From: Hoplostethus atlanticus
Lineage: Eukaryota > Chordata > Actinopteri > Trachichthyiformes > Trachichthyidae
Length of the DNA: 64,000 nucleotides
Reading direction: 5' to 3'
Assembly (NCBI GenBank): GCA_034670405.1
Contig: JAXDDX010000165.1
Coordinates: forward strand, 652,001 to 716,000
Shown in pieces: positions 1,652-8,873 of this stretch. Position 1 is the stretch's first letter. Each line of letters begins with the position of its first letter. The notes beneath the pieces were generated by a model that did not search any database, was not told the origin of the DNA, and saw only the letters and a program-made list of their open reading frames with translations. A program made the position numbers and the translations under genes.

Positions 1652-1659
1652 TGCCACGG
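1652..1659. repeat. Left 8-bp target site duplication of the hAT-type element
   Basis: The octamer TGCCACGG sits directly before the CAGTGGCGGCTGG terminus and recurs exactly at 4853-4860, directly after the opposite terminus. An 8-bp duplication is diagnostic of hAT-superfamily insertion. The perfect match suggests that the two ends were mobilised together and that the insertion is not very old. Confidence 0.93.
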
Positions 1660-1672
1660 CAGTGGCGGCTGG
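1660..1672 (+). repeat. hAT-type left terminal inverted repeat
   Basis: CAGTGGCGGCTGG, identical over 13 bp to the complement of 4840-4852. The CAGTG start is typical of many vertebrate hAT elements. Confidence 0.92.
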
Positions 1673-2107
1673 TGCATTTTTCTCCAGGGGGGGCTGTACC
1701 AAAAATCAAGCAAACATGTACTAAGGTATCATCAGTGTATTTAAATAAATGAAAAGGCCTTTATTTGTATTTGCTGAGCTGTAAAACATTTAACTGTAAA
1801 GTAACATAACAGGGAATCAGGTGTGGGCTGCTGATGAAAATGCATTCTCATCATCTTGCAGATGCCTCCTTGTTTTTGAAAAGGTCTGCAGTGGAAGCTT
1901 CCCTGCTTTGGTAGCCAATGGAACCAGCCCCAAAACAAGACTCTGTTCTGTAGGCAATATTGAGTTTTGTTCCAAAATGACACTTATAAAACGATTTGAT
2001 GGCACAAAATTAAAACAAAGAATAGTCGATCCCTTGGTTTATACAAATACACTTGTACAGATAGAATCCACAATGTATTTAGTTTAAATGTATTTAGGTT
2101 AAATACA

Positions 2108-2113
2108 TTTATT
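2108..2113 (-). terminator. Polyadenylation signal of the hAT-borne gene
   Basis: The minus strand reads AATAAA 26 nt after the TGA stop of the hAT-borne gene, inside the transposon. A second minus-strand AATAAA lies at about 1760-1765. Either would give a transcript that ends within the element. No downstream GU-rich element was evaluated. Confidence 0.5.
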
Positions 2114-2138
2114 TGAACATGACAATAAGCATAATGAT

Positions 2139-3430
2139 TCAAGTACGATTTGCATTAGAGGATTTGCTGTTCTTCTTTCGCCTGAAGAGACGGAAGAGCC
2201 AAGAGAAGCAGCCAGAATTCTTCCTCTCTTTCTTTGGTTTTGAAGTGGTGATCTCAACGTTGGAGCAGTCAAGTCCTGCAGGGTCGAGTCCTTGGATGAA
2301 GTCTCCCTCCTCCTGTGCAGTGATACTGCTGTCAGGCCCAGCACAGAGCAAAGTAGTGACGTTGTTTTTCTCATCACACTCAGGATTTGCATCTTCATGG
2401 ACACTTGTGGCACTTTCATCAATTGGATCACTGGCAGAAAACCTGACTTTGTCTTCCTTGAGGACCACATGGTCTTGGTCCTCTTCCTCTGGAGGAACTG
2501 CATTGAGGAACTGCATTGAGTCAGAATCTGCTGTGACGACTGGCTCCCATGTAACAAGCTGGTTTATATACGGCCCACAGGGTGAAGAGCAGTCAACCAC
2601 AAATCCAGATACATCAGAAGGAGGAGCATAGAAGTACTTTTCAACAAGTACATTCTTGCAGTATTCATACACGTGGTCTTCTAGGTCACCAATGCAGGAT
2701 TGCTGCAGCAGCCTCCCAATGAGCTCTATGGTCTCACTGGTTTGCGCCATGCTGAATGAAGCCTCAGCATCTCTGAGCAGGTTGGATGGACTCTCGGCGT
2801 CCTGGGCTGGATGGTTGCATGGTTCAGCATTTCCTGAAGTCTCGTCCTTAGGTACGAGAGGTATGTCTTCCTCTGCGCTGACTACTGGTTCCCAGGTGAC
2901 TCTCAGACTCTCAAGTCCACAGGTAGATCTAGAGCCTACGGTCAGCTGAGAAAATGGGGACAGGGAACAGTTGAGCTCAACCGCATATTCAGAGATAGAG
3001 GCTGGAGCATAAGCGTATCGTCCCTCCCAAAGGTCTTCAGCTGAGGTGGGCTGAGCAAATGGAGACAGGGCAGAGTTGAGCTCAACAGCGTATCCAGAGA
3101 TAGAGGCTGGAGCGTCAGCATATCGTCTCTCTCCATGGTCGTTGGCTGGGATGTAAGCCATGAATTCGTCATCATCACCTTTGAGGGCGTTGAGGCGAAT
3201 GACTTGATCCATCCACGCTGAAAGAAGTGAGACAAGGCATGTCAGCATGTTAGCAAAAACATGACAGAGAGTTTCAGTTCTAAAACATTTAGCTTCATCT
3301 TTTATCACACAGAGACAATTAACCAGACAGTAAAGGAACTGGCTGGCAAGAATGTTTTAGGATAGTAGATCTGTTTAAAAAATAAAAATACAAGTAGATT
3401 TGTCTTACCTGGACAGAAATTCTCCTCCAT
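2139..3430 (-). CDS. Two-exon gene of unknown family inside the hAT element (366 aa)
   Basis: I do not recognise the family. Exon 1 codes from ATG at 3430-3428 to 3409 and exon 2 from 3217 to the stop at 2139. The 191-bp intron has donor CCAG/GTAAG and acceptor CTTTCAG. The 22-nt and 1,079-nt coding parts join in frame to exactly 367 codons, which is why this start is preferred over an ATG inside the intron. The protein begins MEENFCPAWMDQ. A 35-residue unit starting YADAP (about residue 40) repeats as YAYAP (about 75), with a diverged third copy starting YFYAPP (about 202). The motif VTWEPVV occurs at about 114 and 229. Residues about 164-201 look helical. The rest is acidic until a basic tail at about 334-357 with the core GCFSWLFRLFRRKK, which could be a membrane-binding or nucleic-acid-binding patch (inference). 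The intron argues against a processed retrocopy. It could be a captured host gene or an element-specific accessory gene. There are no internal stops, so the reading frame is intact. Confidence 0.78.
3218..3408 (-). other. Intron of the hAT-borne gene
   Basis: The minus strand begins GTAAGACAAA at 3408 and ends CACTTCTTTCAG at 3218, a canonical GT-AG intron of 191 bp with a pyrimidine tract. It splits an alanine codon (G/CG). An in-frame ATG at 3308 within the intron would give a longer frame with no splice, but it would bypass exon 1 and translate intron sequence. Confidence 0.75.
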
Positions 3431-3491
3431 ACTTGCTTTTGTTAAATGAATGAAATTGTAACGGTTTGCTAACTAAGACAATGAAATCGCT

Positions 3492-3558
3492 GTTTCTTTC
3501 AGGTTGGTAGAGTGAAGTCTGACCCACAAGTGTTCTGTGTGCTCTGAGTTTCTTTCAG
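3492..3558 (-). promoter_or_regulatory. Candidate promoter-proximal direct repeat upstream of the hAT-borne gene
   Basis: The 11-mer GTTTCTTTCAG occurs at 3492-3502 and 3548-3558 (CTGAAAGAAAC on the coding strand), 62 and 118 bp upstream of the start codon. Just beyond, the coding strand has an ATTGG (inverted CCAAT) box and TGACATCATGACA, which resembles CRE/AP-1 half sites. GAAAGAAAC is reminiscent of interferon-response elements but lacks their usual 2-nt spacer. The function is inference. Confidence 0.35.
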
Positions 3559-3599
3559 AATGTCATGATGTCACAGCCAATCTGAGCTCTGTGGCCTCG

Positions 3600-4839
3600 G
3601 CACACATTTCATCACACCCAGAGTCAAATGGTCACTAATGAATAAATAAAAATACTAATAGATACAAATAATCCCTAATAGAAAATGAGGGAAGCAAATA
3701 TCAACAAAAAAGAAACTAACAATACTAGCTGCTTTATTTTCTGTAGAACTCACCACCATGTCCATGACTGCTCATCCATGAGCATTAAGAATCTCTTGCT
3801 CCATTCAAGTGCTTTTTGTCTGTAAAAGGTGATCACACACTGCCCATCCAAAGCCCCCCAGGCTGCTGCAATTATGCTAGACCTTCCTTGGAGTCACACA
3901 GTCTCATACTCCAAACACAAGAGACAACATAGACAACAGAACAGACTAGTTATAGTGCATACATACAACATGGGTCTGGTCGGAGAGGCTGACTTTCAGA
4001 TTTCACAATCACAATTCTGCAATCCAAATTTCAGTCAGAAGTAAAATTAAAGAGATTAAAAATGTTGTATTCATATTGCATCATAAACTTGTGCAACGCT
4101 GAGAGCTGTTTACTCCGTCTGGCTCTCAGACAACCACCCACCAACTTGTATAATGAATGAACATTTGTTGTAATGAAACGTGCTTAAGGTAAGTTAAGGT
4201 ACTTCAATTAGTGCAAATTATTTATAGTAATTATCTTTTATACTACAATATGTAATGGTGAAAGACTAAAGTAAGCAAAAAGTGCCTCGATAAGTGCAAA
4301 AGAAATCTGACAACACAAAACCCTGAGACAATGGCAGAAAATTATGAACACAGAAAGATCTAATAGAAAAAAACATTTAAGAAAAAAATAAATGAATATG
4401 GTATTACATTTGAAATACCCAGTGCCATCAAAACGCTGAGTGAACTGGCTCAAAGCCATATGACTTTGTCACCTTGTGGCTTAAACTTTTTGTACATAAA
4501 TTTTGCCCTTCTCTCCTTGAGAGATGCAGATTTCTCAATGACTCTATGGCACCACAGAACTTGACACAGTTTATTATTTTAGACAGGATGTGCCCTGTTT
4601 TTGTCAACCTCTTCATTATGCTCACGGATCCCTGTCCTCTAGCCTTCATCAAGCTGAGCAGCTATGTTTACTTTCCCAAACATTTGCTTTTGATTTTTCT
4701 GATATGTGGTTTAAATCATTCAAACCTGTCTGAATCCATGCTGGGTCTGAGACCTGTCGTTTGAAAAAGGGTGCAGGGAAAGCAAAATAAAGCATTGGTG
4801 TCACTACATACAGTTAGCCAAGCCTTCCTACTCTACTTG
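3600..4839. other. Right-hand non-coding half of the hAT-type element
   Basis: AT-rich sequence with several short open frames (for example at 4474-4764 and 4238-4459). None shows a transposase motif, a zinc finger or a convincing splice structure. It may hold the 5' regulatory region of the cargo gene plus subterminal sequence needed for transposition. Confidence 0.5.
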
Positions 4840-4852
4840 CCAGCCGCCACTG
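4840..4852 (-). repeat. hAT-type right terminal inverted repeat
   Basis: CCAGCCGCCACTG is the exact complement of the left terminus at 1660-1672. Beyond 13 bp the two ends diverge (GGTGC against GGCAA). Confidence 0.92.
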
Positions 4853-4860
4853 TGCCACGG
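4853..4860. repeat. Right 8-bp target site duplication
   Basis: TGCCACGG, identical to 1652-1659. Before insertion the site would have read a single TGCCACGG followed by the sequence at 4861. Confidence 0.93.
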
Positions 4861-5856: not shown

Positions 5857-7624
5857 TCAGAAAATGTTCCTATCAGGGAAAATCTCTTTGTTCAAAGTGG
5901 CCAAAGTAAAATACTTTTTGGAAATTAATACAGTCAGACAGAGAGCTATTTCAACAGGAACTATTCCCTCAAATAAATCATGGACAATGTCTGGAGGAAA
6001 ACCAGCAGTAACATTGAAATGGGAAAGTTTTTCTGACAGTACACATTTTCTCTTAACACCGAAACAGTTGCTCAAAGAATTTTCCTCTAGGGTTTTAAGA
6101 TGACTTGTGTGAATCTCCTCAGTTCTCAGAGAGAAACCTCCAGTTCCAACTTCCTTGGCCTGAAAATCTAACCTATCTACTGTACAAAACCTGCAAACAT
6201 ATCTCCCAGAAAAACTCTACAAAACCGGCAATACTGTGCGCACCAAGGTTGTCGGCAACAACACACTGCAATGTACCCTTCAAAGTTTTACCCAATTTAT
6301 CCACAAAAATCCCTTGTTGTTCTAGTATTATGAGATCAGTAATCAATGGCTCTAACACTTTGTTGTAACCATAAAGCTTGACATCATTGCTATTTATCAA
6401 TGCAGCCAAATGGATAAAAGACAACGAGGAGTGACAACCAGGTGGCAGATTGCCTAAAGTCCAATACAAGGCACAGATTTTGTGTTTTTTACGTGATGTA
6501 CCGATGGGATTACATATCTCAAAATCGTCAACATACAGAATCAAAGAAATAGAACATTCTTTCGAGAGAACAGCATTTCTTTTAAAAAGAAGTCCATCCC
6601 AAAAGGATCTGTATACCTCTTTATCACTCTCCCCTGGTTGATGTTTTTCTTTCAAATTTATAGCCTTATTTAGTATAGTTTCACAATTTAGAAGTTGCTG
6701 CAAGGATTTTAGTAAAGGCACATACTGAAAAGACTTTCTATTCTTTCGGTCTAACACATATTCTACTGGTTCCACAACATTGAAGGTTTTTCTATAGTAT
6801 GTCTTCCGTTTCCAAGCGGTTGACAGTGGACCATGTTTTCCTATTGCAGCTTGAATGGGATTCGAAGTGCAAAGCACAGTGGCTAACTCTTTCACAACTG
6901 ATTCTTCAACTTGGCAATTGTGACCTTGTAAGTAGCGGATTATAGTCTCTTGGGTGACCGGCACAGAAACAGTACCAATTAAATATTGCAGCTCTTCAAG
7001 TAGTTCATTCACAGCTGCACTTGGCACCAGAAAAGCATTTTCTAACTTAAGTAAGACAGAGGCTAATTTTAGTTCAATAACTTTTGTCAAATCTGTTGAT
7101 TCTTCATCAGGAAGTTCTTCAGATGGTAAATCCTCATCCAACTGCTCAGTAGTGCTTCTTTCAAATGATTCTACAACAGCAGGACTATCAACAGGTCCAC
7201 CAACAATTCCAGGCTTTAAATCGTTAATTGTATGGGGGGTATGTTTTCTCCATTTGTGAGTATTGAAAGCTCCATAAATATTTGTTTTGTATGAGCAACC
7301 AGCAAACATACAACTGACAGATTCATGATTTTTCAAATGTTTCCCAATGTGTCGAAAATAGTCCGTCTCAGTAGAAAGTTGATTGTTGTTGCAAATGTGG
7401 CACTTGAATGGTGAAAAGCTATCCTTCTGTGAGGATTGTTGAGCAGGATGGGATTTGCTTAGATGGGTCAGTAGAGCTTTCCATGTCTTGCATGTGCATG
7501 GGCAATTCTCATAAGTACAGGGGTAAGCATGGCCCCGCCCATAATGCCGATGATCAAGTTTATAGTGTTTCAGAAGTTCAGATCTTCTTGAATATGAATT
7601 GTCACAGTCTTTACACTTCCACAT
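5857..7624 (-). pseudogene. Broken CACTA/EnSpm-like transposase with four N-terminal C2H2 zinc fingers
   Basis: The minus strand encodes a Tnp2-like transposase. I start it at the MWKC methionine (7624), because the frame further upstream is low-complexity sequence. Four C2H2-type fingers follow in order: C4/C7/H20/H25, C36/C41/H54/H59, C75/C78/H92/H96 and C105/C110/H123/H128. A variable acidic linker comes next, then a Tnp2-like core with YVDDFEICNPIG (about residue 362) and VVADNLGAHS (about 456). The frame is lost near 6210-6214, at an A-run on the plus strand. The same protein continues in another frame from there to 5857, including PPDIVHDLFEG, a Tnp2-type motif. The usual C-terminal remainder is missing. 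The aspartates in the first two motifs and in HDLFEG are candidate catalytic residues, judged from knowledge of the family. Whether it is best placed in EnSpm or in a related fish family is uncertain. Confidence 0.7.
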
Positions 7625-8640
7625 GCATGGATAACTGAGGAAACATGGGATACAAGCGAGATACAGGAGAAGAGGAGAGGAGAGGAGAGGCGAGGAGAGA
7701 CGAGACAAGACCTACCTTTAGTTTACTGAGAAGACCACACCTTAATTTTCAGACCTGATAGACAGTTGCCCAGCTCAAATTAGGAGAGTGGCCTAATTAT
7801 CACAAATGTCCTCATGATATTATAAACAGAACTTACCACAAGCAATGACCATTAACAGGAGCTTCCAAATAGGTTGCACAGCAGGAACAACTGATTTGGC
7901 AGCTGCTTCCCTTAAGTTGAAAGAGAAAACATTATTTAGTTTTTGTTTAGCCATCAAATGTATTGGCTACTAACATCATGCACAAATTAAGAATACCCAG
8001 CATTTAACATCAATTGATTACTCTTAGGCCTATACTTTCTTTTATGATTTTAGGGCAGCTGGCTAACATTTTGGTACATTTCTATCACATGTAATTGTTG
8101 TCATAGTGTAGCAAACTAACATTACCAGCTAGAATTAGCTGGGCATTGTAACATTATAGCTGATAAATACTGAACACAAAGTAATTAGCAGGGTGAATGA
8201 AAGGTCACAAATGTTCTTATGATATTGACAACAGAAATGACCACAATCAGTAATATTTGGAGCTTTCCAGCGACTGCACTGTAAGAGAAAAAAAAATTCA
8301 TAGTCTTTAGCAAGCAAACTTTAGCCAAAGTTAGGTTTAAACATTAAGGTACAGACATCACGTATCCCCACTTTATTTGGCATATATTGTTAAATAAATA
8401 GGCGTGCAATATGACCGGCCTATGCTCTGCTCTCTCCTACCTACAGGGCAGCAGACGACCGGAGTCGGTGTTGTTAACTCTTTGTGACCTGGGTTAATTA
8501 CACTAGCTAACACAGGCTATCAAGCATGAGTGCTGAAATTACTACCAAATTATTCTTTTTTCCTTACAAGTGTCAACTTCGCTCCTTCTTCCAAGTGTCC
8601 CAAGTGTCGCAGTAGGTTCGCTCGAGGCTGGTTACCGCCA
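7625..8640 (-). other. 5' part of the CACTA-type element, no clear exon
   Basis: A GAGGA-rich low-complexity patch at about 7670-7700 is followed by AT-rich sequence. Minus-strand GTAAG-like donors (for example at about 7833-7838) could belong to an upstream non-coding exon, but no exon can be defined with confidence. Confidence 0.4.
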
Positions 8641-8666
8641 GATTTTTCCGAGAAGTTTTCAAAAAA

Positions 8667-8678
8667 TGCGCATGCGCA
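8667..8678. promoter_or_regulatory. Perfect NRF1-type palindrome in the transposon 5' end
   Basis: TGCGCATGCGCA matches the consensus of nuclear respiratory factor 1, a common core-promoter factor in vertebrates. It lies about 220 bp inside the right terminus and about 1 kb upstream of the minus-strand transposase, where its promoter is expected. Confidence 0.55.
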
Positions 8679-8873
8679 AATCATGCTTAATCTAATAAAA
8701 GTCCCTTGATCAAATGAATAATTTCAGTTTGATGACCCGCTGCCAGTTTATATTGTATCCATATAAAAAAAATAGATTAAACCGTAATCATAAATTAGAA
8801 AGTTTAGTTTAAATGAGCAAACTAATAATTTTCAGCTATTGGAGTGAGAAAAAAAACATTGAACGAACGACAG

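Follow-up and report, generated by a model that had tools for sequence, protein, structure and literature searches.

How does a transposable element with perfect ends and no transposase of its own come to carry an intact, intron-containing gene, and does it spread that gene through the genome? This question is raised by a stretch of 64,000 nucleotides of Hoplostethus atlanticus (contig JAXDDX010000165.1, positions 652,001 to 716,000; hereafter, the window), in which an element of 3,193 bp (window 1660-4852), bounded by perfect 13-bp inverted ends, contains a two-exon gene. By comparison with related sequences in the same genome (632.8 Mb in 1,161 contigs), we conclude that a non-autonomous hAT-like element very probably captured a host gene, together with its intron and upstream DNA, and then multiplied, becoming a multicopy Pack-hAT.

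An earlier interpretation of this DNA, made from its letters alone (the sequence-only reading), had described identical 8-bp flanks, perfect 13-bp inverted ends and an intact minus-strand gene with a GT-AG intron and a polyadenylation signal inside the element, and all of these are present (Table 1); only the length of 367 codons requires correction, as it counted the stop, and the gene consists of 366 codons plus the stop, for a product of 366 amino acids (aa). The absence of a transposase is likewise borne out: the only open frames of at least 100 aa within the element are those overlapping exon 2, and the contig of the window has none of the 150 places listed in a genome search for the hAT dimerisation domain (the best 150 scored, out of 758 candidates). 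Members of the hAT superfamily have short terminal inverted repeats starting with CAGNG, a start that the end sequence CAGTGGCGGCTGG fits, and the 8-bp duplication typical of this type is perfect at 11 of the 14 gene-bearing loci with both ends and in six of the seven further elements described below. We infer a non-autonomous hAT-like element, with a transposase acting in trans.

The element family is mobile. A DNA search of the genome gave 78 matches (best 40 of 835 candidates scored), from which 28 loci holding 29 gene copies were fetched as the basis of the comparisons of ends, clade and coding sequence. With up to two mismatches allowed per end, 14 of these loci yielded both ends, and no end pair was found within the stretch read in the remaining 14. 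The two-ended elements are 2,784-3,625 bp long, and their duplications are perfect over 8 bp at 11 loci, matching at 7/8 positions at two and at 6/8 at one; all of the 11 perfect duplications differ from one another. Near-full-length copies occur elsewhere in the genome, with duplications of their own. Furthermore, the exact 13-mer end is found 1,126 times in the genome (544 + 582), against 10 (7 + 3) for the reversed control. A search with the 366-aa protein gave 154 matches (best 112 of 215 candidates scored), and merging of the 150 listed rows left at least 94 loci, six of them on contigs with diverged relics. Besides these six, the gene is found at 88 or more further loci on 51 contigs, of which 54, as a lower bound, cover residues 6-7 to at least 357; among the gene loci, the check for ends applies to the fetched ones. 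A genome search with both ends and protein, proposed as a check by the sequence-only reading, has therefore returned several gene copies between the same ends with differing duplications, and its suggestion that the element spreads the gene holds, given the shared ends, the different 8-bp duplications and the single clade formed by the 29 genes read. As a separate observation, at locus L047 (~1207-1240) 8 bp separate the right end of one copy from the left end, itself altered, of a second, an arrangement that looks like one copy inserted beside the other.

The origin of the gene became apparent in a search with a diverged copy (L059), which revealed paralogs on contigs C67, C25, C77 and C41 and a distant one on C187. 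The C67 paralog has an open frame of 1,044 aa composed of tandem repeats (G000:C67:1684681-1687434, L073 in part; its repeats hold DVPLVAT-type motifs), and that on C25 is a 630-aa open frame. In C25, exon 1 is ATGGAGGGAAATTTCTTTCCAG, followed by GTAAGA, and is 22 nucleotides (nt) long, as in the element, and homology to the element runs through the intron and upstream to ~313 bp before the ATG. In C187, too, exon 1 has 22 nt and the intron phase is that of the element, and this contig bears a tail of the same GCFSWL...FRRK type, though in a second frame. Relics or broken paralogs are present on C77 and on C569/C451. No element ends, with up to two mismatches, were found in eight fetched stretches (1.0-4.0 kb) of six host contigs. 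The proposal that the element has captured a host gene, which the sequence-only reading had put forward as one possibility, agrees with these paralogs that share the exon-intron start and lack the ends in the stretches read, and the comparison as a whole supports a host derivation of the gene. Separately, the diverged host-gene relic, frameshifted in L059, occurs twice on G000 C451 (L061 in part; 4188-4580 and 8305-8697) at a spacing of 4,117 bp, and also on the small contigs C569, C388 and C1092, in a manner resembling a tandem array.

The limits of the captured DNA can be located on both sides. C25 and L059 continue upstream with common sequence that the element lacks from ~3738 (placed by eye), which sets a breakpoint at about that position of the window; on the left, L059 homology stops no more than ~10 bp from where the element core joins. 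With the breakpoints so placed, the captured host DNA would amount to ~1.96 kb (window 1782-3738). The adjoining segment, window 3739-4155, has no match in the gene-less elements or host stretches read.

The sequence-only reading had also allowed that the gene is an accessory of the element itself; in that case, it would have been carried for a long time and needed for spread, and the copies outside would be decayed relics of older elements. The broken state of the L059 and C77 copies, with no ends in the stretches read, would fit such a history, as would stop codons somewhat below expectation between element copies (see below). However, C25 and C67 keep open frames with more repeats than the gene of the element, and the upstream sequence common to C25 and L059 runs past the element breakpoint as at a native locus. 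In addition, gene-less elements with the same ends are also mobile, among the ends listed, pairs with too little room between them for the gene segment occur most often (25 of 36, paired by eye), and variation between copies is equal at the codon positions. On balance, we consider an accessory gene quite improbable.

Copies that lack the captured segment also exist. Beyond the 28 gene-bearing loci, seven further elements were read, six of them with perfect 8-bp duplications (one being ACACACAC). Six of the seven share a junction at which GCTGAGCTG is joined directly to AATGAACATTTG and the whole gene segment is missing: two are plain gene-less elements (1,286 and 1,294 bp), and the remaining four contain ~0.85-2.2 kb of other, additional sequence. 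The seventh (L067, 1,242 bp) is a gene-bearing copy reduced by deletion, so that the three short elements read comprise two without the gene and one that retains part of it. The two core pieces that adjoin in the gene-less form lie ~2.38 kb apart in the full element, separated by an insert without flanking duplication. Among 36 elements paired by eye within the first 100 listed ends, 25 are 1.0-1.32 kb long, three are gene-bearing copies of the DNA search and eight have other lengths. Since the core pieces join without loss and the host homology ends at the same point, we prefer to regard the gene-less form as the older. The sequence-only reading would have abandoned mobile gene carriage had the ends occurred without the gene and had the gene been single-copy outside the element; ends without the gene do occur, but the gene is not single-copy, since paralogs exist. 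In the gene-less elements with extra sequence (L063, L064, L065 and L068), this sequence sits at different places, and short overlaps at the insert edges in L063 and L064 suggest nested transposons.

The gene segment itself might likewise be a separate transposon, inserted once into the hAT-like element, with the outside copies as its other insertions. Copies do exist outside the ends and the boundaries of the insert are sharp, as such an origin would have it; yet no duplication flanks the insert, and the outside copies vary in extent, with L059 corresponding to full-element positions 133-2088 in pieces and C77 to ~179-1564 in two pieces, while C25 and L059 continue together past position 2088. 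A nested transposon is, on this evidence, extremely unlikely, and capture of host DNA by the element is the reading followed here.

A tree of exon 2 unites all 29 element copies read in a single clade (98/95), to which C77 and L059 are sister, and C25 falls outside; the bootstrap is not fully settled, the C25 row has data in a quarter of the columns, and the C77 row is made up of two pieces. Because all of the element genes read fall in one clade, the tree points to one capture followed by a burst, and the spread is recent in these terms, since the end branches have a median of 1.2% and the stem 3.5%.

Taken together, the following history is proposed. The starting form would be a gene-less non-autonomous element of ~1.29 kb, presumably moved in trans by a hAT transposase. 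This element would have taken in ~1.96 kb of genomic DNA belonging to one gene of a host multigene family, namely ~0.3 kb of upstream sequence, the 22-nt exon 1, the intron, the entire exon 2 and the poly(A) signal. The capture would have occurred at the DNA level and not via RNA, because the intron and the 5' flank came along, and the lack of a duplication flanking the insert suggests template switching or end joining as the route. The resulting element of ~3.5 kb, recognised by its unchanged ends, would then have transposed many times, leaving 8-bp duplications, with the protein as a passenger probably not required for spread.

The coding sequences of the copies are consistent with such a passenger. 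Their coding regions diverge from the consensus by 0.5-3.5%, variation per codon position between copies is equal (0.0286, 0.0307 and 0.0296) and that of the intron is similar (0.0227). Relative to the neutral expectation, the ratio of non-synonymous to synonymous variants (N/S) is 0.95 for variants found in single copies (interval 0.70-1.35) and 0.86 for shared variants (interval 0.57-1.33). The frame is intact in 13 of the 29 copies read. Exon 2 holds 28 distinct indels, eight of them multiples of three, at 2.6 per 100 bp against 6.1-11.2 in intron and flanks, a lower rate that may reflect base composition. In eight host-host and host-element comparisons, the ratio of non-synonymous to synonymous substitution rates (dN/dS) is 0.24-0.53, two of the values, with dS above 1, being rough and L059 being compared over its 5' part only. 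We regard coding change between copies as neutral or close to it, although the stop codons leave a slight doubt. As regards the choice between "selection or recent movement" offered by the sequence-only reading to explain the intact frame, recent movement is supported by the low divergence from the consensus, and selection between copies does not emerge, as both N/S intervals include 1; the test of selection between copies that it had proposed, carried out on codon positions and N/S, detected none, with the shortage of stops as a small doubt.

Several results weigh against this history or parts of it. The exact parent locus was not found among the paralogs recovered. Exon 1 was seen in C25 and C187 only, L059 has other sequence where exon 1 is expected and the C77 match begins at exon 2 only; since the host stretches were scanned over only 1.0-4.0 kb, element ends may lie further out. 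The genome is rich in hAT domains, with at least 150 places, but at 30 fetched hAT-domain loci (~3.2 kb each) no element ends and no autonomous partner were found, so that the label "hAT" rests on the ends and on the duplication length. A tree of the element core, with 20 gene-bearing and six gene-less rows (26 in all; L047, L048, L051, L053, L054, L060 and L067 were omitted because their cover is short, and L049 and L050 because theirs is broken), intermixes the two forms, giving no order of age between them, groups L068, which is gene-less, with the gene-bearing L052 at 97/95 and gives a single gene clade an approximately unbiased test value (p-AU) of 0.09. A cruder count over aligned codons gave ratios of 0.80 and 0.83 for the consensus against L059 and L061, respectively, the 5' part of L061 being poorly aligned. 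Finally, five stop variants were observed against 11.1 expected (P 0.035), 40 against 50.2 in a wider list (P 0.08) and 32 against 48.8 when two out-of-register loci are removed from it (P 0.007), the wider count assuming 1.6% divergence; this shortage is marginal, and it counts here because a pure passenger would not predict it. By a further count, 13.8 copies would be expected to contain a stop and 4 do so; this count goes in the same direction and was not used as a test, because it treats shared variants as independent.

Alternatively, the amplified copies may be expressed from the captured upstream region and yield protein, and some may be maintained by selection, as a new dispersed gene family. 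The mild shortage of stops, the intact frames, the GT-AG intron kept in every copy read, the ~0.3 kb of captured upstream DNA homologous to the host gene and the rarity of indels in exon 2 would all be in keeping with this; however, N/S is near neutral for single-copy and shared variants alike, the indels of exon 2 have no bias to multiples of three, and low divergence by itself leaves many frames intact. We judge a selected gene family to be unlikely, and carriage as a passenger remains the preferred reading.

The features of the element in the window are listed in Table 1. The window copy is a shortened member of the family, as other copies are ~430 bp longer on the right before the same end.

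Table 1. Features of the hAT-like element and of the gene that it carries (window coordinates).
Feature	Position	Strand	Remark
Target-site duplication, left, 8 bp, TGCCACGG	1652..1659	none
Left terminal inverted repeat, 13 bp, CAGTGGCGGCTGG	1660..1672	+
Left core of hAT-like element, common to gene-less copies	1660..1781	none	core extends to GCTGAGCTG in full and short copies
Captured host segment (putative): ~0.3 kb 5' of ATG, both exons, intron, 3' region	1782..3738	-
Polyadenylation signal AATAAA	2108..2113	-	just 3' of stop
Exon 2, 1,079 nt including stop	2139..3217	-
Intron, 191 bp, GT-AG	3218..3408	-	GT-AG kept in 29/29 copies read
Exon 1, 22 nt, MEENFCP + 1 nt	3409..3430	-
Segment present in gene-bearing copies	3739..4155		right edge +/-4 bp
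Right core of element	4156..4852		~430 bp ahead of final ~20 bp lost here
Right terminal inverted repeat, inverted CAGTGGCGGCTGG	4840..4852	-
Target-site duplication, right, 8 bp, TGCCACGG	4853..4860	none

As for the protein, neither the window version nor the copies' consensus matches a Pfam family above the cut-off, and a search of the PDB with the element protein found no solved relative. A weak match to the CLAMP domain (PF14769; 21.0 bits in the window protein against a cut-off of 22.7) suggested a link with flagellar C1a-32, which was dropped because the match falls further, to 15.9 bits, in the copies' consensus. The Cys/Trp/Arg-rich tail, common to C187 and the relics, could be a putative membrane-binding end. 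The repeat-rich host frames also gave Pfam matches, which were set aside as apparent repeat artefacts; these include AP5B1_barrel in C67, which is above the cut-off but passes in no single stretch alone. Exon 2 contains an internal direct repeat of ~105 bp (window 2945-3148), of which L057 lacks one 105-bp unit, and L056 has 86 bp more at this place. Near the element, on the minus strand (window 6173-7708), a 511-aa open frame weakly matches a C2H2 zinc finger, at 22.6 bits where the cut-off is 25.2.

That such elements pick up genes has been described in animals before. In their survey of 100 animal genomes, Tan and colleagues counted 370 Pack-TIRs, of which 208 are hAT, and report four multicopy cases (PMC8277862). 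The element described here is a multicopy Pack-TIR in the sense of that survey (PMC8277862): host sequence lies inside the element ends and the duplication, the paralogs on C25, C67, C187, C77 and C569 lie outside such ends in the stretches read, and copies are numerous with distinct duplications. As in Pack-hAT-N8_XT of the western clawed frog, host sequence is held within non-autonomous hAT ends at several loci with differing target duplications; unlike that case, in which the survey reports a 291-bp piece of a 5' untranslated region on three chromosomes, the present element has a whole two-exon gene at dozens of loci (PMC8277862). In Drosophila melanogaster, Ssk-FB4 is described in the same source as nearly a whole gene in four copies, with 9-10-bp duplications, ends of ~700 bp, reported peptides and signs of positive selection, FB4 being judged MULE-like (PMC8277862). 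Both cases involve a near-whole gene with 5' upstream DNA taken by a non-autonomous element with terminal inverted repeats and moved by transposition, whereas ours has short ends, dozens of copies and a near-neutral pattern, and is known from sequence alone (PMC8277862). The Pack-TYPE transposons of plants are likewise described as non-autonomous and as capturing and moving coding DNA; the present element is similar in being a non-autonomous carrier of coding DNA, likened by description only, and differs in being of an animal (PMC8903248). In the open literature searched, Pack-hAT or Pack-TIR came up only in these two papers, and the end sequence CAGTGGCGGCTGG together with "hAT transposon" returned nothing.

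What is notable here is that a gene is carried whole, with its intron, and in many copies. The survey found only four multicopy cases in its 100 animal genomes (PMC8277862). There is a small chance that a transposon has made one host gene into dozens of dispersed, potentially self-contained intron-bearing copies, some of them putatively expressed and selected. In any case, what appears to be one capture with a recent burst can be read in a single genome, together with gene-less sister elements, host paralogs and a breakpoint, and for this reason the family lends itself well to asking, in a natural setting, whether gene copies borne by a transposon are passengers or new genes.

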